Below are positions 9,645 through 54,050 of a stretch of 61,641 nucleotides of DNA, one piece after another. Each line of letters begins with the position of its first letter. The stretch's first letter is position 1. The notes beneath the pieces are model-generated. The model was given only the letters and a program-made list of their open reading frames with translations. It had not been told where the DNA came from and did not search any database. Origin of the DNA: a virus. The translations under genes and the position numbers were made by a program. The stretch lies in IMG/VR virus record IMGVR_UViG_3300049893_001527, positions 1 through 61,641 of that record. The stretch is one strand, 5' to 3'.

Positions 9645-9937
9645 AGGAAGTCCGTGCTCAACTTAGGGAATTCACTAAACTTACCGGTGGGTTACACGAA
9701 TACCAAGTACAACACTTAAAAATGTGGCCTTTGGTGTTTTTTGGGTATAATGAGTCAGAATGTCATTTCGATTATGAAGCCAAAGAACTAACGTTTTTCT
9801 TAGCCAAAAACCAAGAAAACCTCGCTAAACGCATTATGGCGGTTCGTTTTAAAGAATTTGTTAAAGCAATTAAAGAATTAATAGGGGATTACAAAGTAAT
9901 AGTTCGTACCAACAAGAAAGTATTGTATGAGTCCTGA
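9605..9937 (+). CDS. Hypothetical protein, 110 residues
   Basis: Starts at the ATG at 9605 behind an AAGGAG site and overlaps the end of the SbcD-like gene by 40 nt. The sequence is mixed alpha/beta (HFDYEAKELTFFLA in the middle, basic helix KEFVKAIKELIGDYKVIVR at the end) with no recognised motif. Sitting between the nuclease and terminase genes it is part of the same transcript. Confidence 0.75.
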   Translation: METGTESDKLVRVKEVRAQLREFTKLTGGLHEYQVQHLKMWPLVFFGYNESECHFDYEAKELTFFLAKNQENLAKRIMAVRFKEFVKAIKELIGDYKVIVRTNKKVLYES

Positions 9938-10505
9938 TATTGAGTCCTTATTAACGGTAGAAGAACAGCAAGCATTGCTGAAATGGCGAGCAAATACCAA
10001 TTTGCGACCAATACCGGTGGCTAATGCTTTACAATTATATCAATTGTATTTAAATGGTTATAGTTGTAAAGATATATATAGATTAAATGATGAATCCTTG
10101 CCATTAGGGTCGATAGTGGATGCACGTATTCGTCACGAATGGGACCGCCGCAAGGATGAACACTTAAAGCAATTATACGATACGATTTCCGACAAAGTAT
10201 TAAAAACTCAAATGGAATCAGCGGCATTTTTGGCAGATTCCCTAAGTGCAGCCCACGTAGAACACGGGACAAAATTTAAGAAATACCTTCAAACACACAA
10301 TCCCGAATTCATAGAACAAATAGGCATACATTCCCTAAAGGAATATCGGGAAACCCTTAATGCTTTAACTAATTTAGTAAATAAGCAAACTGCTAAAATA
10401 GAAAAAGAATCCCCAGCCGTCAAAGAGTTGCCGGTCAAGGAACAGCCAGTTGAGCTTGACAACGAAGCTGCGCTTAAGTTATTGGAATCATTAGAGAATA
10501 AGTAA
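9927..10505 (+). CDS. Putative small terminase subunit
   Basis: 192 residues placed directly before the large terminase and overlapping it by one base. The N-terminal third has a helix-turn-helix-like stretch (ANALQLYQLYLNGYSCKDI, about residues 32-50) as in TerS DNA-binding domains; the middle is helical, suited to oligomerisation, and the C-terminus is a charged KE/PV-rich tail. The assignment rests mainly on position, size and architecture. Confidence 0.6.
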   Translation: MSPDIESLLTVEEQQALLKWRANTNLRPIPVANALQLYQLYLNGYSCKDIYRLNDESLPLGSIVDARIRHEWDRRKDEHLKQLYDTISDKVLKTQMESAAFLADSLSAAHVEHGTKFKKYLQTHNPEFIEQIGIHSLKEYRETLNALTNLVNKQTAKIEKESPAVKELPVKEQPVELDNEAALKLLESLENK

Positions 10506-12409
10506 TGGATGATATAGAACGGACAAAACGCAAGGCTTTATTCGTCCCTTGCCAATCCAAGGATTCATTAAAAAGATGGATTAAGATATATTTAGGTCTA
10601 GATATACCCGATACCATACTTTGCGATGACGACACCACTACGCCACCATCCAATTCTAGCCCCATGGATTTATTATGGGAAATATATCATAAGGCATTGG
10701 ATGGTAAAGACGAAGATTTCCAAACAGTTTTGGCTTACGCTGCCCGGGACTCTTATAAAACATTGTCGGCTGCCGTAATGGAAGTGCTTTGTTTGTTCCA
10801 CTTAAGACGTAGCGTAGCCCACATGGCGGCTATTGAATCCCAAGCGGCCAAAGCGGTACAATATGTAGATAAGTTTTTGCGTAGACCGATTTTGAGGGAT
10901 TTCGTTACTTCCAACAACAAAAGAACGGTTGAAATAACTCGTTACGACCACGTTAACTTTAAATATCCTACTTTATCTAAAGCTGAATACGATGCGTTAG
11001 ATATTAGCAAAAAGGGTAGTTATACCGCACATTCTTACTACATTAAAGTAGTTATAGCTACTATGGCTGGTGCGAACTCAGAACACGTACCTTTTATGGT
11101 TTTGGACGAATTAGACTTGGCCCCACCCAAGCCAGTAGAAGAAGCACAAATGATTCCGTCACAGGGGGAAAATGGGGAAGTCCCTATTACTTTAATGATT
11201 TCCAGCCGTAAATTCGCCTTCGGCTTAGTACAGAAAGCATTAGACGAGGCTGAATCAAAGAAAACTATAGTTAGGCATTGGAACTTATTGGATGTAACCA
11301 AAAAGTGTGAACCAACCAGACACCTACCCGAAGAACCTAAAATACCTATATATTATAATGAAAATACTTTAGCGGCTATTAATGAGGCAGATTTTAAGTT
11401 ATTATCACCAGAAACCCAATCAAAATATAAAAAAGCCGAAGGTTTTGCTGGATGCTTAAAGAATTGCTCGTTATTTGCTAGCTGTAAAGGTCGATTAGCC
11501 ACTAAGCCGGTAGGAGATTCTAAATTATATAAGTCTGTAGCGGTTACCAAAGGGGTGTTCCATAAAGTAACAGCAGAAACCGCTAAAGCCCAATTACTTT
11601 GTTGGAAACCATCTAGTGAAGGCTTGATTTACCCCCACTTTGACCGTACCAAACACGTAGTTAGGGCTAGGGCTATGGCGGAACTTATTACAGGAGAACT
11701 ACCGAAAAGCCCATTTTTTAGTAAAGCAGATTTAATTAATTTAATGAAAGCTAGGGGTATGTCTTTTCATTTAGGCATGGACTTCGGCTTTACACACAAT
11801 TTCGCTACAGTTTTAGCGGGTTTAGATGGTCACCGGTTATTTATATTTGACGTACAAGCTGTGGCTGGATTAGAATTAAATGAAAAAATAGGTATTTGTA
11901 AGCCATATTTGGATTATGACCCCACAGTTTATCCAGACCCCGCTTACCCTAGCGACATTAAATCATTTCGCAGGGCTGGCTTTAGGTGTAAGACTTTTAC
12001 CAAAGATATATTAGCTGGAATTGACTCAGTACGTATTAAATTAATGCCGGGTGGTGGCAAAGAACCAGAACTATTTATATTAGGTGGTGACGAAGGTTGT
12101 GAACTATTAGTAGATCGTGTATCAAAATACCATTGGGTATTGGATGATGCGGGTAGGCCAACTGACGTACCAGACGATTCTTTAGATGACGAAGTTGACG
12201 CATTGCGTTATTTGTGTCAAAATTTGTTCGGTCCTAAAGGGAAACCGGTAGCTGCCAGTATTAATCAAACCACCATTACCCAATCCGGGGAATCTACCGT
12301 AATCACTAGGGATAATTGGATGGTGGAGCGTATTAGGACTTTGACGGATGGAAATAGCACTTCAAATATAATAAAAGGCAAGAAGGGCTCCTTTATATTT
12401 GAGGTATAA
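10505..12409 (+). CDS. terL: Terminase large subunit (packaging ATPase-nuclease)
   Basis: 634 residues. The ATPase domain has a Walker A-type AARDSYKTLSA (79-89) and Walker B PFMVLDELDLA (196-206) followed by a coupling motif LMISS. A cysteine set (Cys317, Cys321, Cys327, Cys366) suggests a zinc-bound insertion. The nuclease domain opens with HLGMDFGFTHNFA (Asp426) and ends with SLDDEVDALRYL, giving the RNase H-like acidic residues. It packages DNA through the portal encoded at 13418-15298. A degenerate relative of its ATPase domain is encoded in the tRNA island (48304-48798). Confidence 0.95.
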   Translation: MDDIERTKRKALFVPCQSKDSLKRWIKIYLGLDIPDTILCDDDTTTPPSNSSPMDLLWEIYHKALDGKDEDFQTVLAYAARDSYKTLSAAVMEVLCLFHLRRSVAHMAAIESQAAKAVQYVDKFLRRPILRDFVTSNNKRTVEITRYDHVNFKYPTLSKAEYDALDISKKGSYTAHSYYIKVVIATMAGANSEHVPFMVLDELDLAPPKPVEEAQMIPSQGENGEVPITLMISSRKFAFGLVQKALDEAESKKTIVRHWNLLDVTKKCEPTRHLPEEPKIPIYYNENTLAAINEADFKLLSPETQSKYKKAEGFAGCLKNCSLFASCKGRLATKPVGDSKLYKSVAVTKGVFHKVTAETAKAQLLCWKPSSEGLIYPHFDRTKHVVRARAMAELITGELPKSPFFSKADLINLMKARGMSFHLGMDFGFTHNFATVLAGLDGHRLFIFDVQAVAGLELNEKIGICKPYLDYDPTVYPDPAYPSDIKSFRRAGFRCKTFTKDILAGIDSVRIKLMPGGGKEPELFILGGDEGCELLVDRVSKYHWVLDDAGRPTDVPDDSLDDEVDALRYLCQNLFGPKGKPVAASINQTTITQSGESTVITRDNWMVERIRTLTDGNSTSNIIKGKKGSFIFEV

Positions 12410-44296: not shown

Positions 44297-44356
44297 CTAA
44301 TTAGTTAAATCCCGGCAATTTAAACCCCCGATATCCAAGCGGTATCGGGGGTTTAG
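44293..44356 (+). terminator. Terminator closing the structural block
   Basis: A TTAACTAATTAGTTAA palindrome overlaps the tail-tube stop (44293-44308). A 12-bp stem AAACCCCCGATA (44322-44333) with TATCGGGGGTTT (44343-44354) follows, then AGTTTT. The stem is strong, though the T-run is short. Confidence 0.85.
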
Positions 44357-44429: not shown

Positions 44430-44489
44430 GGTTGTGTTGGCGCGGTTGGCAGCAAGAACCGCTACAACGGTGAAAACTGAATAGCAAGT

Positions 44490-44562
44490 GCATTGTGATG
44501 CGATTGGTATCGCAGTTACGCTGTCTACGTAATGAAAGCGGGTTCGATTCCCCTACAATGCG
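44490..44562 (+). tRNA. tRNA-Asp(GTC)
   Basis: Acceptor GCATTGT/ACAATGC, anticodon stem TTACG/CGTAA around loop CTGTCTA. The T stem has one C-C mismatch. No CCA is encoded, as in the rest of the island. Confidence 0.85.
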
Positions 44563-44572
44563 TGTGTTTTAT

Positions 44573-44643
44573 GCGCGTATCGTCTAATGGCAAGACTGGA
44601 GCCTCCAAAACTCTTAACGTGGGTTCGATTCCTACTGCGCGCG
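44573..44643 (+). tRNA. tRNA-Trp(CCA)
   Basis: Acceptor GCGCGTA/TGCGCGC, D stem GTCT/AGAC, anticodon loop CTCCAAA, T arm GTGGG-TTCGATT-CCTAC. Confidence 0.85.
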
Positions 44644-44764
44644 TTTTTGGGTCGTATAAAGTGTAACAAATACGCTCTTAGCAAATGGTTTGACAAATGT
44701 CAAACAAATACTAGGGGAGATATTGGTCGTCCTATTTCGGACAATCCAATCCCAAAATTATTAC

Positions 44765-44848
44765 AGGGGTATAGTCTAATTGGCAAGACAGCGGGCTTTG
44801 ACCCCGCCGGGCGGAAGCCCATTCTAGGTTCGAATCCTAGTACCCCTT
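44765..44848 (+). tRNA. tRNA with anticodon TTG (Gln) but a long variable arm
   Basis: Acceptor AGGGGTA/TACCCCT, D stem GTCT/AGAC, anticodon stem GCGGG/CCCGC with loop CTTTGAC. The A1-U72 pair suits Gln. The variable region is 16 nt with a GGGC-GGAA-GCCC stem, a size normally found only in Leu, Ser and Tyr tRNAs. Confidence 0.8.
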
Positions 44849-44850
44849 TT

Positions 44851-45249
44851 ATGAAACTACTAGTAACTGGTGACCGTAATTATACTAATTATAGTATAGT
44901 ATACGAAACAATTAAAATAATACAACCAACATTAGTAATACATGGTGCTTGTAAAGGGCTGGATTTGTTGGCTGATAAAGCCGCTAAAGCATTATGTATT
45001 AAAACACATTCAGAACCGGCCAAATGGGACACTTATAAGAAAGCGGCTGGTCCTATTAGAAATCGGGTTATGTTGGAAATGAAACCGGATTTAGTAGTTG
45101 GTTTTCACGATAATATAGCGTCATCGAGTGGCACAAAGGATATGTTGACAGCAGCCATCAACGCTGGTACAGTTGTCTGGCTGGTGCAACGAGGATTGTA
45201 TTACCCGCTTAAATCCATACCGGATTTAGTAGACCTAATGGTGGAATAA
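44851..45249 (+). CDS. SLOG-superfamily (DUF2493-like) protein
   Basis: 132 residues from ATG 44851, directly after the tRNA. MKLLVTGDRNYTNYSIVYETI is the YspA/DUF2493 SLOG opening (GDRxYT, nucleotide-type Rossmann), followed by VIHGACKGLDLLADKAAK, NRVMLEMKPDLVVGFHDN and a glycine-rich turn. SLOG domains bind nucleotides or nucleotide-derived signals; some sense ADP-ribose-type ligands in defence. Role here is unknown. Confidence 0.85.
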   Translation: MKLLVTGDRNYTNYSIVYETIKIIQPTLVIHGACKGLDLLADKAAKALCIKTHSEPAKWDTYKKAAGPIRNRVMLEMKPDLVVGFHDNIASSSGTKDMLTAAINAGTVVWLVQRGLYYPLKSIPDLVDLMVE

Positions 45250-45387
45250 ATGTTAGAAATCCATACCTATTATTTGGTTTTTGATTTTGTTCAAAAACCG
45301 GAACTTTCAACTAATGAGGTTTGGTATCAAATTCGATTGATTCATCAAAAGTATCCAGTTAAAATACAAACCGCTAAAGCAGAATAA
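45250..45387 (+). CDS. Small hypothetical protein, 45 residues
   Basis: ATG immediately follows the SLOG stop (TAAATG). Translation MLEIHTYYLVFDFVQKPELS and on to a lysine-rich end. Short and unrecognised, but coupled and bounded by a tRNA. Confidence 0.45.
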   Translation: MLEIHTYYLVFDFVQKPELSTNEVWYQIRLIHQKYPVKIQTAKAE

Positions 45388-45400
45388 ATTTAGCCTATAC

Positions 45401-45474
45401 AGGCTCATAGCTCAACTGGTTAGAGCACCTGCCTTATAAGCGGGAGGTTTCGGGTTCGAGCCCCGATGGGCCTA
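45401..45474 (+). tRNA. tRNA-Ile(TAT)
   Basis: Acceptor AGGCTCA/TGGGCCT, D stem GCTC/GAGC, anticodon stem CCTGC/GCGGG with loop CTTATAA, T stem TCGGG/CCCGA. Reads AUA, common in this genome. Confidence 0.9.
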
Positions 45475-45492
45475 ACAAACACGGAGACACAA

Positions 45493-45678
45493 ATGCTTAA
45501 TACTGGATTAAAGGCTTCTGAATTAATTAAACTTTTGCAGCAGTTTATAAAACAGCATGGTGACCAACAAGTATTTTGTGGTGGTACGGATTATCCGGGT
45601 GGAGTTAAGGATATTTTAGTAAACAAGTATGGCGATGCTTATACCCCTAAAGACGTATTTGTAATACGTCACCATTGA
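45493..45678 (+). CDS. Small hypothetical protein, 61 residues
   Basis: Starts at ATG 45493 behind GGAG. MLNTGLKASELIKLLQQFIKQ helix followed by a beta part (QQVFCGGTDYPGGVKDILV). Many phages carry related small proteins, but I could not name this one. Confidence 0.6.
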   Translation: MLNTGLKASELIKLLQQFIKQHGDQQVFCGGTDYPGGVKDILVNKYGDAYTPKDVFVIRHH

Positions 45679-45783
45679 GCTTGAAAATGAAGCACGCTCT
45701 AGTTTGCGTAGAACCATATAACGACAACATGGTGTATGCCGTTAAGGTGCCATTTATTACACAGTTTACAAAAAGCTTTCAAT

Positions 45784-45867
45784 GGAAAGTTAGCCTAATG
45801 GTAAGGCAAAGGTTTGCTACACCTTGGGGGTGAAAACTCCTTAAGAGTTCGATTCTCTTACTTTCCG
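45784..45867 (+). tRNA. tRNA-Ser(GCT)
   Basis: Acceptor GGAAAGT/ACTTTCC, D stem GCCT/AGGC, anticodon stem AAGGT/ACCTT with loop TTGCTAC, long variable arm, T stem AAGAG/CTCTT. Confidence 0.9.
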
Positions 45868-45868
45868 C

Positions 45869-45953
45869 AGGACTAATATTAGGTATAATTATTATTACGA
45901 TTTAATGACGATTAAATACGAATAATAAGAGGGTTCAAATCCCTTGAAGTCCT
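45869..45953 (+). other. Degenerate tRNA-like element with an AT-rich nested hairpin
   Basis: The ends pair (AGGACT/AGTCCT) and a T arm (GAGGG-TTCAAAT-CCCTT) is intact, but the middle is TTATTATT...AATAATAA enclosing ATTTAAT/ATTAAAT instead of normal D and anticodon arms. Could be a decayed tRNA or an insertion into one. Confidence 0.4.
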
Positions 45954-46019
45954 ATGTCAAGGCTTGGCGCATGATTTGGGCGGTCCCCGAATTAGGCTGG
46001 TTCGATTCCAGTAATCTGA
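45954..46019 (+). other. Degenerate tRNA-like element
   Basis: An intact T arm (GCTGG-TTCGATT-CCAGT) and GTCA/TGAC ends, but the acceptor has mismatches and no convincing anticodon loop could be drawn. Adjacent to the previous degenerate element. Confidence 0.3.
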
Positions 46020-46036
46020 CGTTAGAAGGAAAACAA

Positions 46037-46240
46037 ATGACACAACAAGAAATCCGTACTAAGTATAATGATTTAACCACTAAAATAAATAATTTAATGG
46101 CAGAAGTAAGGTCTTTACAATCCAGTTGTAAGCACCCGAATTACATTGAATACTCACACAGGGATTTTTGGGAAAAAACGTGTAGAGATTGTTGTTTGGT
46201 ATGGGATAATGTGTATAATACGATAGACGAGCCGGATTAA
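46037..46240 (+). CDS. Small coiled-coil zinc protein, family A copy 1
   Basis: 67 residues, ATG 46037 behind AAGGAAAAC. A coiled coil (QEIRTKYNDLTTKINNLMAEV) is followed by a C-x-H and C-x-x-C set (SSCKHPN and CRDCC), likely one zinc site. Related to 46393-46590 and 46624-46821. Its last 10 nt overlap the next tRNA gene. Confidence 0.7.
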   Translation: MTQQEIRTKYNDLTTKINNLMAEVRSLQSSCKHPNYIEYSHRDFWEKTCRDCCLVWDNVYNTIDEPD

Positions 46241-46301
46241 TTAAATGGTATAATACCTGCCTTGTAAACAGGTTTTCTCAGTTCGATTCTGAGATTCGGC
46301 A
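46231..46301 (+). tRNA. tRNA-Thr(TGT)
   Basis: Acceptor GCCGGAT/ATTCGGC, D stem ATTA/TAAT, loop CTTGTAA, T stem CTCAG/CTGAG. Its 5' end lies inside the coding end of the upstream gene. Confidence 0.9.
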
Positions 46302-46305
46302 ATGA

Positions 46306-46379
46306 CTGAGTGTAGCTCAATTTGGTAGAGCACTCGCTTTGGGAGCGAGGGGCTGTAGGTTCAAATCCTATCACTTAGA
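46306..46379 (+). tRNA. tRNA-Pro(TGG), copy 1
   Basis: Acceptor CTGAGTG/CACTTAG with the C1-G72 pair typical of Pro, anticodon stem CTCGC/GCGAG, loop TTTGGGA. Confidence 0.9.
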
Positions 46380-46392
46380 CTAGGGTATTACA

Positions 46393-46590
46393 ATGAAATC
46401 TCCAAAAGAAATCCGGCATGAATTCCAACGATTATGGTCTGAATTAGAATCCGTACATGACCGTATGGATTTACTTAGAAAAGAGTGTTCCCATATCAAT
46501 TGGGTAACAAACGAAACCGCTATAACAGAAGAAGGTCGTAAGGAAAAGTATTGTGATGATTGTGGTGAATACATAGGACAATTAGAATAA
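46393..46590 (+). CDS. Small coiled-coil zinc protein, family A copy 2
   Basis: 65 residues. Coiled coil (HEFQRLWSELESVHDRMDLL) then KECSHIN and YCDDCGEY, the same C-x-H-x-N ... C-x-x-C pattern as the neighbours. Confidence 0.7.
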   Translation: MKSPKEIRHEFQRLWSELESVHDRMDLLRKECSHINWVTNETAITEEGRKEKYCDDCGEYIGQLE

Positions 46591-46623
46591 CATTTAGCCG
46601 AATCACGGCTAAGGGAAATCGTT

Positions 46624-46821
46624 ATGAATACAGACAATAAATCAGATCCGACACAACTAAACGCAACACAAACTGCTTTATTTAAGGCAGCGTTCAACAA
46701 CGATAGTGATGCAGTTAAGTCAATACAAGACAATTGCTCCCACCATAATCAGAAGCAATTTGTGTTGGAATGGGGTAAGGTCGTTGAGTGGTGTGGTGAT
46801 TGTTATACAAGATTTAAATAA
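46624..46821 (+). CDS. Small zinc protein, family A copy 3
   Basis: 65 residues, ATG 46624 with AAGGGA upstream. Helical first half, then DNCSHHNQ and WCGDCYTRF: the third copy of the C-x-H ... C-x-x-C family. Confidence 0.68.
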   Translation: MNTDNKSDPTQLNATQTALFKAAFNNDSDAVKSIQDNCSHHNQKQFVLEWGKVVEWCGDCYTRFK

Positions 46822-46826
46822 ATTAT

Positions 46827-46901
46827 CGGGGAGTGGCCCAGTCTGGTTAGGGCTCCTGTTTTGGAAACAGGAAGTCGCAGGTTCGAATCCTGCCTCCCCG
46901 A
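46827..46901 (+). tRNA. tRNA-Pro(TGG), copy 2
   Basis: Acceptor CGGGGAG/CTCCCCG, D stem GCCC/GGGC, anticodon stem CCTGT/ACAGG, loop TTTGGAA. Same anticodon as copy 1 but a different body, so not a recent duplicate. Confidence 0.85.
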
Positions 46902-46911
46902 CTGTAGTAAT

Positions 46912-46999
46912 GGAAAAGTGGCAGAATGGTTGATTGCAACGGTCTTGAAAATCGTAGCTGGCTAACGCTGGCTTGTGGGTTCGAATCCTACCTTTTCCG
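46912..46999 (+). tRNA. tRNA-Ser(TGA)
   Basis: Acceptor GGAAAAG/CTTTTCC, anticodon stem ACGGT/ATCGT with loop CTTGAAA, long variable arm, T stem GTGGG/CCTAC. Confidence 0.88.
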
Positions 47000-47002
47000 C
47001 TT

Positions 47003-47073
47003 GGGCTCCTAGTATAATGGGATTATGTTGGCTTTGCAAGCCGAAGACAAGGGTTCGATTCCCTTGGGGTCCA
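47003..47073 (+). tRNA. tRNA-Ala(TGC)
   Basis: Acceptor GGGCTCC/GGGGTCC (two wobble pairs), anticodon stem TTGGC/GCCGA, loop TTTGCAA. Confidence 0.88.
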
Positions 47074-47114
47074 CTTTATGTAGTTGGTTAGTAAAACCTT
47101 AAAGGAAAATCAAA

Positions 47115-47633
47115 ATGACCCCAATTGAATACTTAGCTAAAATTACCCAACACGTATTGGTGCGGATACTTGCTGAACCATCATATGATTTTAGTCCACC
47201 AGATGTTCAAACAGTTGCGATTCAGGATTTGCAAGCTTTGGCTGATGAAGCTACGGAACAAGGTAACGCTTTGGTGGTTCAGTCAGTTTTGCCGCATGAA
47301 ATGTGTGTGTTAATGTTGGATTTCAAAACCCCTCATTTGGACGAAGGGGAATTGGTGCGATTATTGAGCCAAAACAAACTTGAAGGAGCTTTGTTTAGAA
47401 CCAATAATTCTTATCATTTTTATGGAAATAAAATGTTGTCTCACGAAGTTTATTACCGCGAGATTCTTCAATTAGTAGGAGTAACCATAAATGATCAACC
47501 CATTCTAGACCTAAAGCACGTTTCGATTTCTGCTAAAAGAAGAATGGCTGGTCTAAGGGTTAATGCGGCTTGGGGTAAGCGGGTGCCAAAATTTGTCACT
47601 AATTTACCTACATTAAGTGGGTTCAAATGGTAG
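47115..47633 (+). CDS. Hypothetical protein, 172 residues
   Basis: ATG 47115 with AAAGGA. Alpha/beta fold with a conserved-looking LFRTNNSYHFYG in the centre, then DLKHVSISAKRRMAGLRVNAAWGKRVPKFV. The RTxxxYHFY pattern recalls small primase/nuclease-like proteins of phages, but the catalytic acids are not clear, so no function is assigned. Confidence 0.65.
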   Translation: MTPIEYLAKITQHVLVRILAEPSYDFSPPDVQTVAIQDLQALADEATEQGNALVVQSVLPHEMCVLMLDFKTPHLDEGELVRLLSQNKLEGALFRTNNSYHFYGNKMLSHEVYYREILQLVGVTINDQPILDLKHVSISAKRRMAGLRVNAAWGKRVPKFVTNLPTLSGFKW

Positions 47634-47642
47634 TAGCAGTAC

Positions 47643-47713
47643 GCGGAGCTAGTTCAATGGTAGAATGTTAGTCTTCCAAACTAAGGATAAGGGTTCGATT
47701 CCCTTGCTCCGCG
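47643..47713 (+). tRNA. tRNA-Gly(TCC)
   Basis: Acceptor GCGGAGC/GCTCCGC, anticodon stem TTAGT/ACTAA, loop CTTCCAA. Confidence 0.92.
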
Positions 47714-47719
47714 AGGGTT

Positions 47720-47769
47720 TCAATTAACCAAATAATGCTTCGCGCGGGGCTTATTTTGGGAATAATTGA
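47720..47769 (+). other. Strong hairpin between tRNA genes
   Basis: TCAATTA/TAATTGA encloses CCAAATAA/TTATTTTGG and a GC-rich tip. It sits in a 129-nt stretch without a gene between two tRNAs and may guide processing or form a small RNA. Confidence 0.45.
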
Positions 47770-47842
47770 TTAAATACGTTCTAGTGAATATACGGCCCGG
47801 AGGGTTAGTATATAAGGTGCAATTCCTTACGTGGCCCTTATC

Positions 47843-47914
47843 AGGGAAAATAGTTCAACGGTAGAACTATCGGCCGATTACCGATAAATGTAGGTTCGAC
47901 TCCTACTTTTCCTA
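47843..47914 (+). tRNA. tRNA-like gene, apparent anticodon GAT with C33
   Basis: Acceptor AGGGAAA/TTTTCCT, D arm AGTTC/GAACT, T arm GTAGG-TTCGACT-CCTAC and a perfect ATCGG/CCGAT anticodon stem. The loop is CCGATTA, with C at position 33 and T at 37 instead of the invariant U33 and a purine, so its decoding is doubtful. Confidence 0.6.
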
Positions 47915-47915
47915 T

Positions 47916-47987
47916 GTGATTGAAACCAAATGGCTAGGTGTTGGTTTGTGAAGCCAATTTTAGCGGGTTCGATTCCCGTCAATCACA
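47916..47987 (+). tRNA. tRNA-His(GTG)
   Basis: Acceptor GTGATTG/CAATCAC, anticodon stem TTGGT/GCCAA, loop TTGTGAA. The D stem is short (ACC/GGT). Confidence 0.85.
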
Positions 47988-47998
47988 CAGGAGTAAAT

Positions 47999-48217
47999 AT
48001 GACTAGAGAAGAATTAGTGGAATTGATGAAAGCTTTAAGAGAAATCCGTGATCGGGTTCAAGAAATAAATAATGAATTAGACGAGGTTTTGGCTGGTTTA
48101 GACCGTGAACACGTTATACATAAAATTTGGGAAATATCCCCTCCCCGCCACAAACCACCATGCGTGGATGGTGAAATCTGTACGTGTGGACTTCGTGGAT
48201 TAAAGCATTTGTTATAA
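47999..48217 (+). CDS. Small coiled-coil hypothetical protein, 72 residues
   Basis: ATG 47999 behind GGAG. Helix MTREELVELMKALREIRDRV and on, then a C-terminal cluster PPCVDGEICTCGLRG with three Cys. Function unknown. Confidence 0.62.
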   Translation: MTREELVELMKALREIRDRVQEINNELDEVLAGLDREHVIHKIWEISPPRHKPPCVDGEICTCGLRGLKHLL

Positions 48218-48220
48218 AAA

Positions 48221-48291
48221 GCGCCTATAATTAAATGGTATAATACCGGTTTTACACACCGGGTTTCCAAGTTCAATTCTTGGTGGGCGCA
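48221..48291 (+). tRNA. tRNA-Val(TAC)
   Basis: Acceptor GCGCCTA/TGGGCGC, anticodon stem CCGGT/ACCGG, loop TTTACAC. Confidence 0.9.
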
Positions 48292-48303
48292 AGAGGAAAT
48301 AAA

Positions 48304-48798
48304 ATGTTTGACAAGTGTAACGATATTGGTTCGTTAAAAGAGTGGTTGAAAAGGTATTTTTGTATTGAATTACAACAAGACGAACTAGAGTTCGTTTGGT
48401 CAATTTACGGTAACTCAGCCCCCAAAGAATTAGTATTACCGGAGCATTTTGATAAAAACACCGTGCCGTTGGTGGTATCAATGGTTTATTTGTTTCATTT
48501 TGATTGTGACGTTAGTTTCTTTTGTTTGACACGTTACTATGTAATTAACCAAATTAAAAAGCGTTTATTGTTGACCAATTGTGCAACAATCGGTAATAAG
48601 CGGGTATCTGTCCAAAAACCTAATAGAACAAACAATATTAGGTTTATATTAAACTATGCTAGTGGACTTGGCATCGAACATACCCCGTTGGTAATTGTTA
48701 ATGGAATGTTTGGGTGTGACGAACGGTGGTTAGATGAAATGAAATTAGTGGCTTGTTCCAAAGGGGGATTAGCTCCCTTGGTTTTAATGATGACGTAA
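48304..48798 (+). CDS. Degenerate paralogue of the terminase ATPase domain
   Basis: 164 residues, ATG 48304 (GAGGAAAT upstream). It aligns in order with residues 15-235 of the large terminase at 10505-12409: SLKEWLKRY with SLKRWIKIY, LEFVWSIY with MDLLWEIY, YLFHFDCDV with CLFHLRRSV, GNKRVSV with NNKRTVEI, IEHTPLVIV with SEHVPFMVL and APLVLMMT with VPITLMIS. The Walker A lysine region is gone and Walker B DELD is VNGM. A non-catalytic terminase-like protein, intact as an ORF. Confidence 0.7.
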   Translation: MFDKCNDIGSLKEWLKRYFCIELQQDELEFVWSIYGNSAPKELVLPEHFDKNTVPLVVSMVYLFHFDCDVSFFCLTRYYVINQIKKRLLLTNCATIGNKRVSVQKPNRTNNIRFILNYASGLGIEHTPLVIVNGMFGCDERWLDEMKLVACSKGGLAPLVLMMT

Positions 48799-48802
48799 TA
48801 AT

Positions 48803-48877
48803 GGTCCCGCAGTTTAATTGGATATGAATACTTGGTTACGACCCAAGAGAATGTGAGTTCGACTCTCACCGGGACCA
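48803..48877 (+). tRNA. tRNA-Arg(ACG)
   Basis: Acceptor GGTCCCG/CGGGACC, anticodon stem CTTGG/CCAAG, loop TTACGAC, T stem GTGAG/CTCAC. Confidence 0.9.
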
Positions 48878-48878
48878 C

Positions 48879-48907
48879 TTGACACCCCCGTAGGACCGTG
48901 GTAGGGT
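48879..48907 (+). promoter_or_regulatory. Second sigma70-like promoter in the RNA island
   Basis: TTGACA (48879-48884), 17-nt spacer ending TGG, TAGGGT (48902-48907): almost the same as at 44401. The next ATG (48915) is 13 nt from the first base of the -10, so its message would be leaderless. Confidence 0.7.
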
Positions 48908-48914
48908 ACTGAAC

Positions 48915-49205
48915 ATGACGACGCGAACACCGGAAGCTGACCTAGACTTACTTAGGGTGGAACTAGCGAATTTAAGTATGGGGGAACACTTGGTAGTACA
49001 AACCAACATGGTTTTTACGGTAAGTTATTGTCAAATGTATGACACCATAGATGTTGCGATAGAAGAACGTGACGGTAAATACCCATCAAAAGTTAACCAT
49101 TTAGTTAAGCAATACGAAGCCAAATTGGCCAAATTTAAGGCCAAAATTGAACGTTTTTGTAAAAAGCATGGTTGGACCGAAGAAGACGTATGGGGTAATT
49201 TATAA
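48915..49205 (+). CDS. Small protein, family B copy 1, probably leaderless
   Basis: 96 residues. A beta-rich first half (GEHLVVQTNMVFTVSYCQMYD) is followed by a coiled coil (HLVKQYEAKLAKFKAKIERF) and the ending KKHGWTEEDVWGNL. No Shine-Dalgarno site; the predicted transcription start coincides with the ATG. Shares its plan with 49394-49675 and 49710-50045. Confidence 0.68.
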   Translation: MTTRTPEADLDLLRVELANLSMGEHLVVQTNMVFTVSYCQMYDTIDVAIEERDGKYPSKVNHLVKQYEAKLAKFKAKIERFCKKHGWTEEDVWGNL

Positions 49206-49211
49206 AGGTAG

Positions 49212-49284
49212 GCATCCATAGCTCAATTGGTAGAGCATTCGGCTTTTAACCGAGCGGTTGGGGGTTCGATTCCCTCTGGATGCA
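49212..49284 (+). tRNA. tRNA-Lys(TTT)
   Basis: Acceptor GCATCCA/TGGATGC, D stem GCTC/GAGC, anticodon stem TTCGG/CCGAG, loop CTTTTAA. Confidence 0.92.
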
Positions 49285-49288
49285 ATAA

Positions 49289-49370
49289 GGGTTTGTTGAC
49301 GATAAGGTTAGCGAAGCAGTCTGTAAAACTGCTGCCTTTGGCCAACTCGGTTCAAGTCCGAGCAGACCCA
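49289..49370 (+). tRNA. tRNA-Tyr(GTA)
   Basis: Acceptor GGGTTTG/CAGACCC, anticodon stem GCAGT/ACTGC, loop CTGTAAA, long variable arm, T stem CTCGG/CCGAG. Confidence 0.9.
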
Positions 49371-49393
49371 TAATGATGCGATAAGGATAAAAA

Positions 49394-49675
49394 ATGGCTA
49401 AAAAAATATATTACACAGACCTTTTAGAAACTTACCTTGCTTTATCCCAAGTAAGACGAGTAAGTTGTTTTGAAATCAAATGGACAGAATTAACCAACGT
49501 GGAAATCACGCAAACCCGTACTTTGGCCGAAGCTAGAGCCAAAGCTAAGAAAACACAAAAAAACTTAAGTCGTAAGATTGAAAGACTAGTAAAACAAGTT
49601 CAATCCTATGCCGCAGAAAAAAAAATGACAGAATTGAATGTCTGGTCAATGTTAGCTGATGACGCTGCTTTATAA
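49394..49675 (+). CDS. Small protein, family B copy 2
   Basis: 93 residues, AAGGAT upstream of ATG 49394. Beta part (VRRVSCFEIKWTELTNVEI), coiled coil (RKIERLVKQVQSYAAEKK) and the ending MTELNVWSML, parallel to copy 1. Confidence 0.68.
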   Translation: MAKKIYYTDLLETYLALSQVRRVSCFEIKWTELTNVEITQTRTLAEARAKAKKTQKNLSRKIERLVKQVQSYAAEKKMTELNVWSMLADDAAL

Positions 49676-49709
49676 GACAGTCTGCAATCCCAACCAAAGG
49701 AATAATACA

Positions 49710-50045
49710 ATGTCAACCCTAGCCAAAATTGCTTGTACGAAATGTGGTTGTAATAAAGAAATCAACCTAGCAAAGTTTGATGGTTTTGATGAACTTTTAA
49801 AAGAGTTCGAAGAACTAAGTAAAGGCGAATACGTAAAAATTCCCGGGGTAGTTGAGTACAAGATTTGTTGGGAAGAAGGTATGGAATGTAGTTCAAATGA
49901 GATCGAAGCTATGATTGACGTTAAGGCTTTAAAGCAAGCTAGGTTAAAGTTTAATAAAAAAATCAAGGCTTTTGAGCAAAAACTAATCAAATTTGCTAAA
50001 AGGCATGGGCTAGAACCCCAAACCGTTTGGGATATAATTATTTAA
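49710..50045 (+). CDS. Small zinc-ribbon protein, family B copy 3
   Basis: 111 residues from ATG 49710 with AAAGGA upstream. An added N-terminal CTKCGC, then the family plan: VVEYKICWEEGMECSSNEIE, helix KFNKKIKAFEQKLIKFAK and RHGLEPQTVWDIII. The KxHG-x4-5-VW end is common to the three copies. Confidence 0.7.
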   Translation: MSTLAKIACTKCGCNKEINLAKFDGFDELLKEFEELSKGEYVKIPGVVEYKICWEEGMECSSNEIEAMIDVKALKQARLKFNKKIKAFEQKLIKFAKRHGLEPQTVWDIII

Positions 50046-50050
50046 GATTG

Positions 50051-50122
50051 TGCGGGGTAGTGAAATGGTTATCACATTAGACTCATACTCTAAGGTTGGC
50101 GGTTCAATTCCGCCCCCCGCAA
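50051..50122 (+). tRNA. tRNA-Met(CAT)
   Basis: Acceptor TGCGGGG/CCCCGCA, D stem GTGA/TCAC, anticodon stem TTAGA/TCTAA, loop CTCATAC. The paired 1-72 and absent GGG/CCC stem rule against an initiator; tRNA-Ile2 with modified C34 cannot be excluded. Confidence 0.85.
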
Positions 50123-50131
50123 AGGAATAAC

Positions 50132-50389
50132 ATGGAACGTTTTAAAACAGAAAACTTTGCAAGACTCGGCAAAACTTGTGCTAGGTGTGGTGAAATTGCC
50201 TATAGCGGAATCAGGGATACCGAAACCCCGGGTTTGTTTGTGCATATTAATCGGCTTATTTGTGACAGATCGTTAGATGAACAAAATCGGGAACTTGACA
50301 AGGCGTGGGACGAGGGGTATAGTGAAGGCCACGATGAAGGGTACGATGAAGGGTATGAAGATGGTGTCGCAGCTAACAAGGATGATTGA
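50132..50389 (+). CDS. Small CxxC protein with a DEGY-type acidic repeat
   Basis: 85 residues, AAAGGA then ATG 50132. Contains TCARCGE (a CxxC pair) and a C-terminal tail with repeats EGYSEGHDEGYDEGYEDG. Function unknown. Confidence 0.65.
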   Translation: MERFKTENFARLGKTCARCGEIAYSGIRDTETPGLFVHINRLICDRSLDEQNRELDKAWDEGYSEGHDEGYDEGYEDGVAANKDD

Positions 50390-50401
50390 GTAATGTAGTA
50401 T

Positions 50402-50473
50402 TGATAGGTAGCCTAATGGCCGGGCGCGTAACTGTTAATTACGAATATGGTGGTTCGAGTCCACCCCTATCAG
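50402..50473 (+). tRNA. tRNA-Asn(GTT)
   Basis: Acceptor TGATAGG/CCTATCA, anticodon stem CGTAA/TTACG, loop CTGTTAA, T stem GGTGG/CCACC. Confidence 0.9.
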
Positions 50474-50518
50474 CTATAATCTTTTGCATAACAGGTGGTG
50501 TTATGCAAAAGATTATAG
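50474..50518 (+). promoter_or_regulatory. 19-bp perfect hairpin sequestering the start codon of the HNH gene
   Basis: CTATAATCTTTTGCATAAC (50474-50492) is fully complementary to 50500-50518 across a 7-nt loop AGGTGGT. The loop holds the Shine-Dalgarno site; the ATG (50503) is in the right arm. It starts on the base after the tRNA-Asn discriminator. Confidence 0.92.
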
Positions 50519-50967
50519 AAAAAGAATGCAAAAAACATGGTTTGTCGGTATTTGTATTTGAGTTGGGTTCTAAAAGATATAGATGCAAAAAGTGCAGGGC
50601 TCAATCAGTAATGAATACCAGAAGAAACGCAAAGAAACGATTGTTGGAAGTTTTTGGAAATAAGTGTTGTATTTGTGGTTATTTTAAATGTTTGGGGGCA
50701 TTAGAATTTCACCACGTTGATTCTATGACTAAAAATTTTTCTATTTCTAGTTCTAAAGCCAATACCAGATCGTTAAAGGTCAAGATGAAAGAAGCGCAAA
50801 AATGTTTAGTTCTTTGCGCTAATTGTCATAGAGAAGTTGAGTCTGGCTTAATTTTAAAAGAAGTTTTAGTAGAAAAATTACAATTAAGGGTTTTGGATGA
50901 ACTGAAGTTTTCTGAACTTGGCTCAAACACAAAAGTGCCGAATTTACAAACTGACACAAATTCGTAG
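50503..50967 (+). CDS. HNH homing-type endonuclease
   Basis: 154 residues. Zinc-bound HNH core: CCICGYFKCLGALEFHHVD (CxxC, then HH with the catalytic His) and CLVLCANCHREVESG (CxxCH). An N-terminal CKKC pair precedes it. Free-standing HNH genes near tRNA genes in phages are usually homing endonucleases that spread themselves with the flanking DNA. The ATG is held in a hairpin (50474-50518), a known way of delaying expression of such genes. Confidence 0.88.
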   Translation: MQKIIEKECKKHGLSVFVFELGSKRYRCKKCRAQSVMNTRRNAKKRLLEVFGNKCCICGYFKCLGALEFHHVDSMTKNFSISSSKANTRSLKVKMKEAQKCLVLCANCHREVESGLILKEVLVEKLQLRVLDELKFSELGSNTKVPNLQTDTNS

Positions 50968-50986
50968 TCCCACAAAGGAGTTTTGG

Positions 50987-51256
50987 ATGAAAACTAAAGT
51001 TTTTGTTGTGGAACGTCTTTATTGTAAATCATTGGTGCCAGATTTGTTGGAGGTTTGTGATTCGGTTGAGGCTGGTATGGCTGTAGTTAACCGGAAAATA
51101 GCTGAAACTGGCGAATCCGCACTTTTTAAGAAAGTACATGATGATTGTGGTCGAATAGAGGTTAGGTTACACACACAACATTATTTTTATTGCATCAACG
51201 AATATCCACTAATGTCAATTAATGACATACCACCCGTTGAACCCGTAGTACCATAA
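50987..51256 (+). CDS. Small hypothetical protein, 89 residues
   Basis: ATG 50987 with AAAGGAG. Alpha/beta (KVFVVERLYCKSLVPDLLEV, EVRLHTQHYFYCINEYPL). No family recognised. Confidence 0.65.
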   Translation: MKTKVFVVERLYCKSLVPDLLEVCDSVEAGMAVVNRKIAETGESALFKKVHDDCGRIEVRLHTQHYFYCINEYPLMSINDIPPVEPVVP

Positions 51257-51268
51257 AGGAATATCCAA

Positions 51269-51568
51269 ATGGGCAAATCAGCTAGAACCAAGAAAGCCGC
51301 AGAACGACTAAAGCAAAAGCGGGCCAAGAAGGACGCTCAACGAGCCAAGTACCAATCATTTAGAGATCGTGGTGAGAATTCAAAGCGGGCGCGTCGGCAA
51401 GCTCGTAAAACGGTTAGAGCCGTAAAGTCTACTTTACATACTGTAGCGGATTGTGGGAATACAGGATGTTTGAAGTGCAATCCGGTTAACTTCAACCCAT
51501 TTCTCAAAGATGGGAAACCAACCCCCGAAATGCCTCGGTGGATGTTTCTAATGTGGCAGGAGGCTTAA
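51269..51568 (+). CDS. Very basic protein with a short Cys cluster
   Basis: 99 residues, ATG 51269 with AAAGGA. Residues 1-55 are Lys/Arg/Ala-rich helix (KKAAERLKQKRAKKDAQR), then VADCGNTGCLKCNP. A nucleic-acid-binding protein is likely; nothing more specific. Confidence 0.65.
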   Translation: MGKSARTKKAAERLKQKRAKKDAQRAKYQSFRDRGENSKRARRQARKTVRAVKSTLHTVADCGNTGCLKCNPVNFNPFLKDGKPTPEMPRWMFLMWQEA

Positions 51569-51569
51569 A

Positions 51570-51956
51570 ATGGGCCTAGATATGTATCTGTATGATATGG
51601 TAATTACCGAAGAACACTCCTTAGCAGAAATGGATCGTAGCCAACTGGCTTATTGGCGTAAGGCTAATTCCATCCATGCTTGGTTTGTGGATAACGTACA
51701 ATCCGGGGTAGATGATTGTGAGTTTTATCCAGTAACGGTTGAGCAGCTTAAAACTTTGTTGGATTTGTGTAAAAAGGCTTTGAATGCGCCTAATATCCAT
51801 GAATCACTAAAGTTTTTACAGCCTAGAAGTGGATTTTTCTTCGGTCCCGTAGATGATATGGATTGGTATTTAAAAGATTTAAGAAATACAGTTGAACAGT
51901 TAGAGGGTATTCTTAAGGATCCACCAAAGGAGATTTATTATCATTCCAGTTGGTAA
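51570..51956 (+). CDS. Conserved phage protein of the MGLDMYLY type
   Basis: 128 residues beginning MGLDMYLYDMVI, with YWRKANSIHAWFVDNVQSG, DDCEFYPV and SGFFFGPVDDMDWY. This is a widespread conserved phage/bacterial hypothetical family that I recognise by pattern, without known function. Confidence 0.82.
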   Translation: MGLDMYLYDMVITEEHSLAEMDRSQLAYWRKANSIHAWFVDNVQSGVDDCEFYPVTVEQLKTLLDLCKKALNAPNIHESLKFLQPRSGFFFGPVDDMDWYLKDLRNTVEQLEGILKDPPKEIYYHSSW

Positions 51957-52160
51957 CACCAAACTATATTGACTTCGGGGTTGTGACACTAATCACAATT
52001 GGGGGCCCCAATATAGTTTGGTGCCCTTGGTAGCAGGGATTTAAAGAGCTACCCGACACAGGTTGGATTTCTAAATGATCCAAAGCCCAAACGAAATAAG
52101 GGTAGCGAGCGACTTCCTTTATTTCGGTAATGGGCGGGGTTCCATCGGCCCCGTGTTGTT
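51957..52160 (+). ncRNA. Candidate structured RNA with at least five helices
   Basis: A 200-nt non-coding stretch. Helix 1 is 15 bp (51957-51971 with 52009-52023) and encloses TTGTGA/TCACAA; helix 2 GGTAGC/GCTACC (52029/52048); helix 3 TTGGAT/ATCCAA (52063/52078); helix 4 CGAAATAA/TTATTTCG (52092/52119); helix 5 CGGGG/CCCCG (52135/52149). GCTACCC at 52048 can also pair with GGGTAGC at 52100, an alternative fold or pseudoknot. It ends just before tRNA-Phe. Confidence 0.6.
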
Positions 52161-52164
52161 TTTA

Positions 52165-52237
52165 GGTGCTATCGCCTACGTGGTCATGGCATTCGGTTGA
52201 AGCCCGAAACATCTTGGTTCGATTCCAAGTGGCACCA
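52165..52237 (+). tRNA. tRNA-Phe(GAA)
   Basis: Acceptor GGTGCTA/TGGCACC, anticodon stem TTCGG/CCGAA, loop TTGAAGC, T stem CTTGG/CCAAG. Confidence 0.9.
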
Positions 52238-52249
52238 CAAGGAAATATA

Positions 52250-52462
52250 ATGACTGCTAATGAAATTCAAGAAATAGCTAATCAAAATAAGTTAGGCAGA
52301 GTTTGGTTTCAAGTAAAAATAGCTCAAAATACTGGTAGAGAAATAGAAGTTGGTTATATTAGTCTTAAAGATGGTTCTAGGGATTTGTTTTGCAAAAGGC
52401 AATCCAGTAGTAATCCAGACCAGTTTTATTTGTGTAATGAATACGCTAAGTTGACACAGTAA
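52250..52462 (+). CDS. Small hypothetical protein, 70 residues
   Basis: ATG 52250 with AAGGAA. Helix then beta (GRVWFQVKIAQNTGREIEVG). No family recognised. Confidence 0.6.
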   Translation: MTANEIQEIANQNKLGRVWFQVKIAQNTGREIEVGYISLKDGSRDLFCKRQSSSNPDQFYLCNEYAKLTQ

Positions 52463-52483
52463 ACGATACCGAGCGAGCCAGCG

Positions 52484-52539
52484 GGAGCCATAAATCCTTG
52501 CAAGGAGTAGTCGGGCTCCGGGGTAGGTGGAAGCCCTAC
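52484..52539 (+). other. Hairpin region before tRNA-Cys
   Basis: GGAGCC/GGCTCC (52484/52514) encloses the 12-bp palindrome TCCTTGCAAGGA (52495-52506); a second stem GTAGG/CCTAC (52523/52535) follows. Non-coding, 85-nt gap. Confidence 0.45.
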
Positions 52540-52544
52540 TTTAT

Positions 52545-52618
52545 TACACCATGGCCGAAATGGATAAGGCAACGGATTGCAAACCCGTTATGTCCCGGTT
52601 CAAATCCGGGTGGTGTAT
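52545..52618 (+). tRNA. tRNA-Cys(GCA)
   Basis: Acceptor TACACCA/TGGTGTA, anticodon stem with one A-C mismatch, loop TTGCAAA, T stem CCCGG/CCGGG. Confidence 0.85.
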
Positions 52619-52629
52619 TTGGGGGTAAA

Positions 52630-52872
52630 ATGAATATAACAGCTTATGTTTCATACCAGATTGAACAAAGAATTTGTGATGGATGGATTAAGGTAAGGGA
52701 CTTTGATGGATATTGGGATTATGGTGTTAGGGAATTCTACACATTTGCAGACGCCAAGAAATACGTTGATTATATTTCTAAGCGAAATCCTAATATAAAG
52801 TTGAGAATAGTAAGGGTACAAACAAATACCACGGTATTAGATTCTACGGGCCAACCAGAGAGGCTAAAATGA
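52630..52872 (+). CDS. Small hypothetical protein, 80 residues
   Basis: ATG 52630 after GGGGGT. Beta-rich (VSYQIEQRICDGWIKVRDF, KYVDYISKRNPNIKLRIVRV). Overlaps the next gene by 4 nt. Confidence 0.62.
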   Translation: MNITAYVSYQIEQRICDGWIKVRDFDGYWDYGVREFYTFADAKKYVDYISKRNPNIKLRIVRVQTNTTVLDSTGQPERLK

Positions 52873-53153
52873 GCAAACCGTCAAATGAAGAACTATGCCA
52901 ACAACTAATTAATGTATTATTAGCATATGATGACCGGTCTTTTGACCCTAGCATGAAAACATTAGTGCAGAAGTGGTCTATTCCAATTAAACCAATTGAA
53001 TTATTAGAAGTCATAGACCGGTGTGTTTTTGGTAGTTTGTGTTCCGGGGTAGTATTGTCCGGGTTACAATTAGTTTATGACAGACAATTAGAAGTGTTTG
53101 GTTTAACACACGAAAACGTAGTAAAAGAAGCGGTATGGCGGGACAACCCATAA
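52869..53153 (+). CDS. Small hypothetical protein, 94 residues
   Basis: ATGA overlap with the previous gene. Helical (EELCQQLINVLLAYDDRS, KPIELLEVIDRCVFGS). No motif. Ends directly at the tRNA-Leu gene. Confidence 0.62.
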   Translation: MSKPSNEELCQQLINVLLAYDDRSFDPSMKTLVQKWSIPIKPIELLEVIDRCVFGSLCSGVVLSGLQLVYDRQLEVFGLTHENVVKEAVWRDNP

Positions 53154-53227
53154 GCGGATATGATGGAATTGGCATACATATTAGGTTTAGACCCTAAGTT
53201 TTGCAGGTTCGACTCCTGCTATCCGCA
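53154..53227 (+). tRNA. tRNA-Leu(TAG) with a short variable loop
   Basis: Acceptor GCGGATA/TATCCGC, anticodon stem TTAGG/CCTAA, loop TTTAGAC, T stem GCAGG/CCTGC. The variable loop is only 5 nt; Leu tRNAs normally have a long arm. Confidence 0.8.
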
Positions 53228-53242
53228 CTAAAGGTAAAACAA

Positions 53243-53647
53243 ATGAATCCACTCAAAGATACTCAAAAATTCATTAAAGCCCTACAAACCATAGTAGAGC
53301 ATAGGTATCAATACCAATTTTGGGTAAGCAATGGTAACCTAAATCCAGACCATGCTAAGACCGTGGATTTAGGTGAAGTAATGTATAACGGGGTCAAGCA
53401 TCCTAAACAACTTAAATGGCGGTCTTCCGAACATTTTAGTTGTTTGTTGAATGAATTAGTAAGTAAGCACGTAAAATTTGTATTTGGTTTTGATTATTAC
53501 AAATTTGATTCAGTATTCGCGTGTTATACCGAAGAAACCAGAGAAGAAGCTATTACCAGACTTAAATTACAAGAAAAAGCCGCCAACGCAGAAGAATCCA
53601 GAGAACGTGCATTACTGGCGAATTTAAAGGCTAAGTACGAGCAGTAA
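53243..53647 (+). CDS. Hypothetical protein, 134 residues
   Basis: ATG 53243 with AAAGGT. Alpha/beta with a coiled-coil C-terminus (EEAITRLKLQEKAANAEESR). Last gene before the tmRNA. No family recognised. Confidence 0.62.
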   Translation: MNPLKDTQKFIKALQTIVEHRYQYQFWVSNGNLNPDHAKTVDLGEVMYNGVKHPKQLKWRSSEHFSCLLNELVSKHVKFVFGFDYYKFDSVFACYTEETREEAITRLKLQEKAANAEESRERALLANLKAKYEQ

Positions 53648-53650
53648 TAC

Positions 53651-53986
53651 GGGGGTAACAAGGTTTCGACGTAGAAATGAAATCCTCAAAGGCAAGCCGT
53701 AGTTGGTCGTTGGCTACGTTAAAAAGCGACTAAAGCATAAAAGACGCTGACATGGCTCTAGCAGCAGCTTAATTGTTGTTGCCCTTTTATTATAAATGCG
53801 AATATATAATAAAAGGTAAAGAATTCGCTAAGGCTCCGGTGGTTTAGGTGGTGGCTAACAAGCCTAGGGGCACAAAAATCAAAGTCAGCTACCCTAGTAG
53901 TAGCCTTGTAGGGGGTTAATCCTACTAAGCTTGTAGAATTTAGGACGTAGGTTTTACGGACGCGGGTTCGATTCCCGCTACCTCCA
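53651..53986 (+). ncRNA. ssrA: Transfer-messenger RNA
   Basis: 336 nt. The 5' end GGGGGTAACAAGGTTTCGACG and the 3' T arm GCGGG-TTCGATT-CCCGC with acceptor TACCTCC form the tRNA-like domain; GGGGGTA pairs with TACCTCC with one G-T. The tag frame (53734-53772) reads SIKDADMALAAA then TAA, though the exact resume codon is inferred. It ends in ALAAA rather than the usual ALAA. Rescues stalled ribosomes and tags proteins for proteolysis. It closes the RNA island. Confidence 0.92.
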
Positions 53987-54004
53987 ACCGAAGCGCGCTG
54001 TACG

Positions 54005-54050
54005 ACCCCTAGATTATCCTAAATGGGATAATCTAGGGGTTTTTATTTTT
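54005..54050 (+). terminator. Strong terminator after the tmRNA
   Basis: A 15-bp stem (54005-54019 with 54026-54040) with a 6-nt loop, followed by TTTTTATTTTT. It ends the RNA island transcript. Confidence 0.95.

Follow-up and report, generated by a model that had tools for sequence, protein, structure and literature searches.

A probable non-catalytic homologue of the large terminase ATPase domain within a phage tRNA island

Introduction

What is an open reading frame that resembles part of a packaging motor doing between two tRNA genes? Few enzymes of tailed phages are as conserved as the large terminase (TerL), which bacterial immune receptors sense directly. An earlier note on the window (the whole 61,641-base stretch of viral DNA analysed here), made from the sequence alone, had reported a degenerate terminase ATPase domain encoded inside a tRNA island, and had suggested that it is either a decaying duplicate or a regulator competing with the terminase for the portal or the small subunit. 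Here, we ask whether the resemblance is real, what the ORF has lost, how it came about, and what it might do. We lean, with some reserve, towards the product being a maintained, non-catalytic mimic of TerL.

Results

The ORF (48304-48798, plus strand) runs from an ATG at 48304 to a TAA ending at 48798 and is intact over its 164 codons, as had been read before. A ribosome-binding-like AGAGG (48292..48296, plus strand), identified by direct reading of the sequence, lies 7 nt upstream of the ATG. On the same strand, ARAGORN places a tRNA-Val (tac) upstream at 48221-48291 and a tRNA-Arg (acg) downstream at 48803-48878, with gaps of 12 and 4 bases respectively; the frame has a translation-ready layout between two tRNAs. 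The island around it (44489-53986) holds 22 tRNA genes and a tmRNA (53651-53986) according to the same program. A consensus scan found an intrinsic-terminator-like hairpin of 16 pairs ahead of the first tRNA (44320..44356, plus strand) and another of 17 pairs past the tmRNA, at the end of the island (54004..54041, plus strand). Because these two strong hairpins flank it, the island is possibly its own transcription unit amid the structural and late genes, and may be transcribed separately from the late genes around it. A scan for sigma-70 promoters returned 21 sites, which is fewer than the mean of 28.5 in shuffled sequences and hence uninformative.

Several other ORFs of the island, all on the plus strand where a strand is given, also drew our attention. 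At its start, ORF 44587-45249 (+) encodes a SLOG-family (YspA-like) protein (Pfam YAcAr, 1.5e-6), relatives of which are present in three TerL-related genomes. For ORF 47115-47633 (+, 172 aa), Pfam lists AEP-like (archaeo-eukaryotic primase 1D-like), a weak match that at E 7.7e-4 falls under the curated cut-off; this ORF is possibly a second disguised enzyme fold within the island. ORFs 48915-49205 and 49659-50045 (both +) are probable paralogues, judging by 24% identity across 84 residues (E 0.006 within the window), and ORF 49394-49675 resembles this pair by eye. ORF 50386-50967 (+, 193 aa) has no Pfam match and a cysteine-histidine pattern that looks HNH-like; it matches (26.5%, E 1e-9) an ORF of the tRNA island of Myxococcus phage Mx1 (L023:10105-10626) that lacks annotation in the Mx1 record. 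A search for copies of core genes among the other island ORFs gave no convincing pair at E 0.05, in a test that, with its different seed setting, also missed the known pair of ORF 48304-48798 and TerL.

The full-length TerL of this phage (634 aa, 10505..12409, plus strand) is recognised by PHROGs as a terminase large subunit (1.3e-12), though it has no significant match in Pfam or NCBIfam, and its nearest named relative is the TerL of Mx1 (58.7%). Directly before it, a 192-aa ORF (9927..10505, plus strand), for which Pfam gives no match, is by this position a candidate small terminase. Among related phages, some TerL ORFs exceed the usual length by some 300-450 aa (L170:10028-13288, ~1087 aa; L172:16180-19044, ~954 aa; L015, ~1049 aa), perhaps through inteins or other insertions.

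The collinear match to TerL that had been noticed from the sequence is borne out by statistics. Residues 1-164 of the ORF align with residues 12-233 of the window TerL (about 10538-11203) at 17% identity, with a BLASTP E-value of 4e-4 for the single pair, and the observed score was reached by 1, 0 and 0 of 2,000 shuffles under three gap settings (z 6.7 to 9.2). The profile-profile alignment that had been proposed as a check gave a still clearer answer: hhalign matched a TerL N-terminal profile built from 16 TerL sequences to ORF residues 1-163 with a score of 42.4 (probability 85.7, P 5.5e-6), whereas 400 random decoy ORFs had a mean of 12.6 (SD 2.5) and a maximum of 25.2, and 200 shuffles of the ORF reached at most 23.5. 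In an hhalign screen of 801 of the 2,241 ORFs of the window, Mx1 and six further genomes (G001-G006), the ORF came first (42.6), the Mx1 protein WNM70160 second (34.3), and the next scored 25.2.

Our statements about distribution draw on HMMER and BLAST searches of a pool of 12,419 distinct ORFs (60 aa or longer), collected from the window and from 25 further records that carry a TerL; 26 of these ORFs are TerLs. The top BLASTP match of the ORF beyond itself in this pool is a TerL (L195, 20% over residues 1-164), at an E-value that is modest even as the best in the full database (0.002); TerLs make up 9 of the 36 ORFs listed by BLAST (the ORF itself counted), against 26 of 12,419 in the pool. 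When the ORF was compared with 57 TerL N-terminal regions, the search space being set to 34,000, its best matches were the TerLs L005 (2e-7) and L148 (5e-7, here over the full length), followed by its own TerL at 2e-4. The signal was weaker in HMMER, where the window ORF had E 0.12 in the pool and L222:14842-15471, in all probability unrelated, followed at 0.16, ahead of the Mx1 fragment. We regard L222:14842-15471 and another ORF whose HMMER score was close to those of the two fragments (L183:19659-19970) as chance matches, their aligned parts being short, coiled or of low complexity by eye. The ORF ranked second by BLAST (L154:17172-18566) was likewise set aside: its aligned region lacks the TerL motifs, look-alikes occur in several of the genomes, and from its appearance it may be a head protein. 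The ORF itself has no usable match in Pfam, PHROGs, PADLOC (PADLOC-DB) or NCBIfam. Judged by these comparisons, ORF 48304-48798 is distantly homologous to the ATPase domain at the N-terminus of TerL.

Structure prediction is compatible with this assignment. From the single ORF sequence AlphaFold2 gave no usable fold (pLDDT 37), whereas with 56 TerL rows as the alignment it reached a pLDDT of 86.9 and a pTM of 0.85. The best PDB matches of the TerL-guided model in Foldseek were HK97 TerL (5.4e-5) and then D6E TerL, while VIA-align placed the ATPase domain of P74-26 TerL at the top (Z 13.4, rmsd 2.3 Å, 147 residues). Close followers were other P-loop folds, reverse gyrase (Z 12.6) and NAT10 (Z 11.8), whose scores near TerL are expected since the P-loop core is common to these folds. 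An Avs3-bound phage terminase chain (8dgc_E, Z 11.9) was also among the structural matches, and among viral structure models many of the named matches were terminases. The model, biased as it is by its own alignment, has an ASCE-type ATPase fold, and the prediction supports a TerL ATPase core fold shared by the ORF product; since it was built on a TerL alignment, this makes the fold compatible with homology and is not independent proof. Sequence statistics, profile comparison and the TerL-guided model together uphold the original assignment of a terminase ATPase domain lying between tRNA-Val and tRNA-Arg.

What, then, has this domain lost? In 56 TerLs, 38 columns are conserved at a level of 85% or more; the ORF covers 28 of these columns without a gap and retains the TerL residue in 10, namely L11, W14, W32, Y35, K51, H65, Y79, H126, G155 and P158. 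The earlier note held that both the Walker A lysine and the Walker B acids were gone, which proved correct for the second and incorrect for the first. K51 aligns with TerL K85, the Walker A lysine, in BLASTP, hhalign and both MAFFT alignments, and is followed by N52 in place of T86 (codons 48454..48459, plus strand). The P-loop arginine is replaced as well (R81 by E47), and further losses are E93 (S59) and H106 (F72). All three Walker B acids, the catalytic glutamate included, have changed (D201 to N133, E202 to G134, D204 to F136; codons for N133-G134 at 48700..48705, plus strand). The ORF ends at the equivalent of TerL S233, so that everything beyond is absent, including the invariant R235 and the C-terminal nuclease domain of RNase H fold, and a six-frame scan of the window with a full-length TerL profile found no further clear TerL piece. 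The retained part comprises the helical entry segment and the ATPase core through the strand that follows Walker B; missing are the catalytic residues, the lid/linker, the nuclease domain and the C-terminal segment to which portal docking is attributed. Given the known role of the Walker B glutamate and the P-loop arginine, both missing, ATP hydrolysis by the ORF product is very unlikely, and we describe it as a putatively dead homologue.

The ORF did not arise by recent copying of the TerL encoded by this phage. Its identity to 56 TerLs is 13-23% (mean 17%), under the minimum of 27% found between any two TerLs, and its own TerL is not the closest, being outscored by those of L005 and L148. 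In the recent sense, therefore, the word duplicate used in the earlier note does not apply: the ORF is no closer to its own TerL than to those of other phages. Its low identity implies instead that it has evolved for longer, or at a higher rate, than any of the TerL lineages sampled. When TerL was allowed to drift neutrally to 24% identity in a simulation with substitutions only, none of 2,000 frames stayed open and the mean was 8.9 stops per 164 codons. The codon statistics of the ORF are weak, with a log-odds of 0.08 per codon against a core mean of 0.217 and GC by codon position of 0.39/0.32/0.38 against 0.50/0.38/0.34, which is a point against strong coding selection; an island ORF at 50500-50967 is similarly weak (0.051).

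A homologue in another phage, one of the checks proposed at the outset, was found in Mx1, and none in scans of GenBank phages, IMG/VR (a pattern scan) and GTDB contigs, nor in the other TerL-related records. A match in G017 (26%, with an internal stop) was rejected as it overlaps a gene on the opposite strand, the translation of which looks to us like an SMC or RecN-type ATPase. The Mx1 protein, WNM70160.1 (119 aa, OR576727.2 82048-82407, minus strand), is annotated as hypothetical. Against the TerL profile it scored 34.3 in hhalign (probability 63), with the same 400 decoys reaching at most 25.2; its best TerL pair among the 57 N-terminal regions (search space 34,000) is L124, at 1e-7; and it matches the window ORF at 3e-4 in BLASTP (single pair). 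Like the window ORF, it has a TerL-like segment around Walker B in which the catalytic glutamate has become glycine (DG for DE, the first Walker B aspartate being retained), it lacks the nuclease, and it stops at nearly the same position: projected on TerL, the window ORF ends at the conserved serine and WNM70160 one residue earlier. These modal offsets hold in 13 of 15 TerL alignments for the window ORF and 33 of 40 for WNM70160, counting alignments that score at least 40 and leaving aside TerLs without the anchor motif. Unlike the window ORF, WNM70160 is without the N-terminal helical segment, and its gene lies outside the Mx1 tRNA island, following an AAA gene on the minus strand.

A tree with 57 TerLs has a branch (SH-aLRT 91) that sets the two fragments apart from the TerLs; the fragments themselves sit on very long branches (7.85 and 3.98), so that long-branch attraction may account for their grouping. 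With homology between the fragments and a common truncation point, a shared origin is likely, though not proven. The remaining 24 TerL-related records yielded no third member, and a search for relatives of WNM70160 returned just itself and one chance match at E 8. The AAA ATPase adjoining the Mx1 fragment (L025:6465-7619, minus strand) has clear relatives in several TerL-related genomes, in which our scans found no TerL-like fragments. As for the Mx1 island, ARAGORN finds (at about 43,000-64,000) 33 tRNAs and a tmRNA in L023 and 4 tRNAs in L024, several more tRNAs than the record annotates, and the phosphoesterase of this island is hardly like the one beside the Mx1 TerL (E 0.051, 43 residues).

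Discussion

In light of these losses, is the ORF a gene at all? That an unrelated small protein with a hydrophobic pattern happened to align with TerL might be argued from the low identity to the window TerL, the modest database-wide E-values and the silence of every family library, but a full-length collinear profile match far beyond 400 decoys and 200 shuffles, the first two places of the hhalign screen taken by the ORF and the Mx1 protein, and the strong enrichment of TerLs among its BLAST matches make chance resemblance very improbable. A better case can be made for a decaying fragment, once selected and only recently deprived of its function, in which the open frame is a leftover: the codon statistics are weak, the catalytic motifs are missing, and Mx1 is the sole place among GenBank phages, IMG/VR, GTDB and the TerL-related records with a homologue. 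Against this, the frame is open at a divergence where neutral drift always brought stops, the ribosome-binding-like site is well placed, the ORF fits tightly between its tRNAs, and the Mx1 homologue has a common end point. We therefore consider decay unlikely, and the decaying duplicate of the earlier note is disfavoured by the open frame, by a divergence greater than that of any TerL pair and by the shared end in Mx1. The mimic that we favour would come from a lineage that is old, evolves fast and has a relative in Mx1, separate from any recent copying of the phage's own TerL, and it would be expressed and retained for a function.

What might that function be? As a standalone homologue of the TerL N-terminal ATPase domain without catalysis, it would present a TerL-like surface and thereby occupy something that TerL normally binds or is bound by. 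This could be the small terminase, the TerL ring (of the phage's own motor or a rival's), or an immune receptor that senses TerL; motor and immune targets appear about equally likely. The product of the candidate small terminase gene 9927..10505 is a possible binding partner. Portal binding is attributed to a C-terminal segment of TerL (PMC5727402), and since the ORF is without this segment, the small terminase or the interface of the TerL ring would be a likelier partner than the portal.

A regulator or inhibitor directed at the motor would substitute for TerL, either within its ring or in the contact with the small terminase, and so pace the phage's own packaging or block that of a co-infecting relative. 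As might be expected of a poison subunit, the catalytic residues are missing from the ORF, and the entry helices and the ATPase core, where the ring contacts are made, are retained; in TerL the ATPase active sites are situated where two monomers meet, and an isolated ATPase domain can oligomerise (PMC5727402); and the ORF is equally similar to the TerLs of other phages and its own. Against this reading stand the loss of the presumed portal-docking segment, the different context of the Mx1 relative and the lack of the N-terminal helices in that relative, and we regard it as a tentative possibility. Its counterpart, on the host side, is an immune decoy that would occupy TerL sensors of the Avs1-3 type without activating them, sparing the real TerL from recognition, a reading that strikes us as about equally tentative. 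Conflict genes may plausibly reside among the small accessory ORFs that lie between tRNA genes, and an Avs3-bound terminase chain is among the structural matches, but that match is owed to the chain being a terminase and not to Avs, and a TerL-like domain might equally trigger the receptor. Avs1-3, which are STAND NTPases, recognise TerL (PMC12931631, PMC12724215), so that a TerL mimic could bind them, although they are host receptors and not phage mimics. Our search of open-licence PubMed Central literature yielded no TerL-derived Avs decoy.

How does the proposed mimic compare with what is known? With the TerLs themselves (HK97, D6E, T4 gp17, P74-26) it shares the predicted core fold, and with those of its phage group collinear homology; it differs in having lost the catalytic arginine, threonine and Walker B acids, in ending at the post-Walker B strand without a lid/linker or nuclease domain, and in sitting in a tRNA island and not in the packaging cluster. 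Closer to its proposed role are SaPI Ppi and the redirection of terminase by PICIs, where a protein binds to the phage packaging enzyme. These interference proteins are encoded by phage satellites, whereas the ORF is phage-encoded, and to our knowledge they are not built from a TerL ATPase domain. The earlier note knew of no precedent, nor did the open-licence papers that we searched describe a TerL within a phage tRNA cluster that is truncated, dead or a decoy; the phrase "Myxococcus phage Mx1" occurs in no open-licence PubMed Central full text.

One could speculate, although we think it rather unlikely, that phages of the Mx1 group keep dead-TerL genes as fast-evolving decoys, which blind TerL-sensing receptors or jam the motors of rivals and which in the present phage would be expressed from the tRNA island on a transcript distinct from that of the late genes. 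As Mx1 is recorded as an isolated Myxococcus phage, the question can be tested through its homologue WNM70160. If a dead TerL domain is indeed maintained, it would represent an accessory gene of a kind new to phages, acting as a built-in motor brake or as a mimic in conflict. Our findings also carry a caution, in that "hypothetical" ORFs in phage tRNA islands may conceal disguised relatives of core genes.
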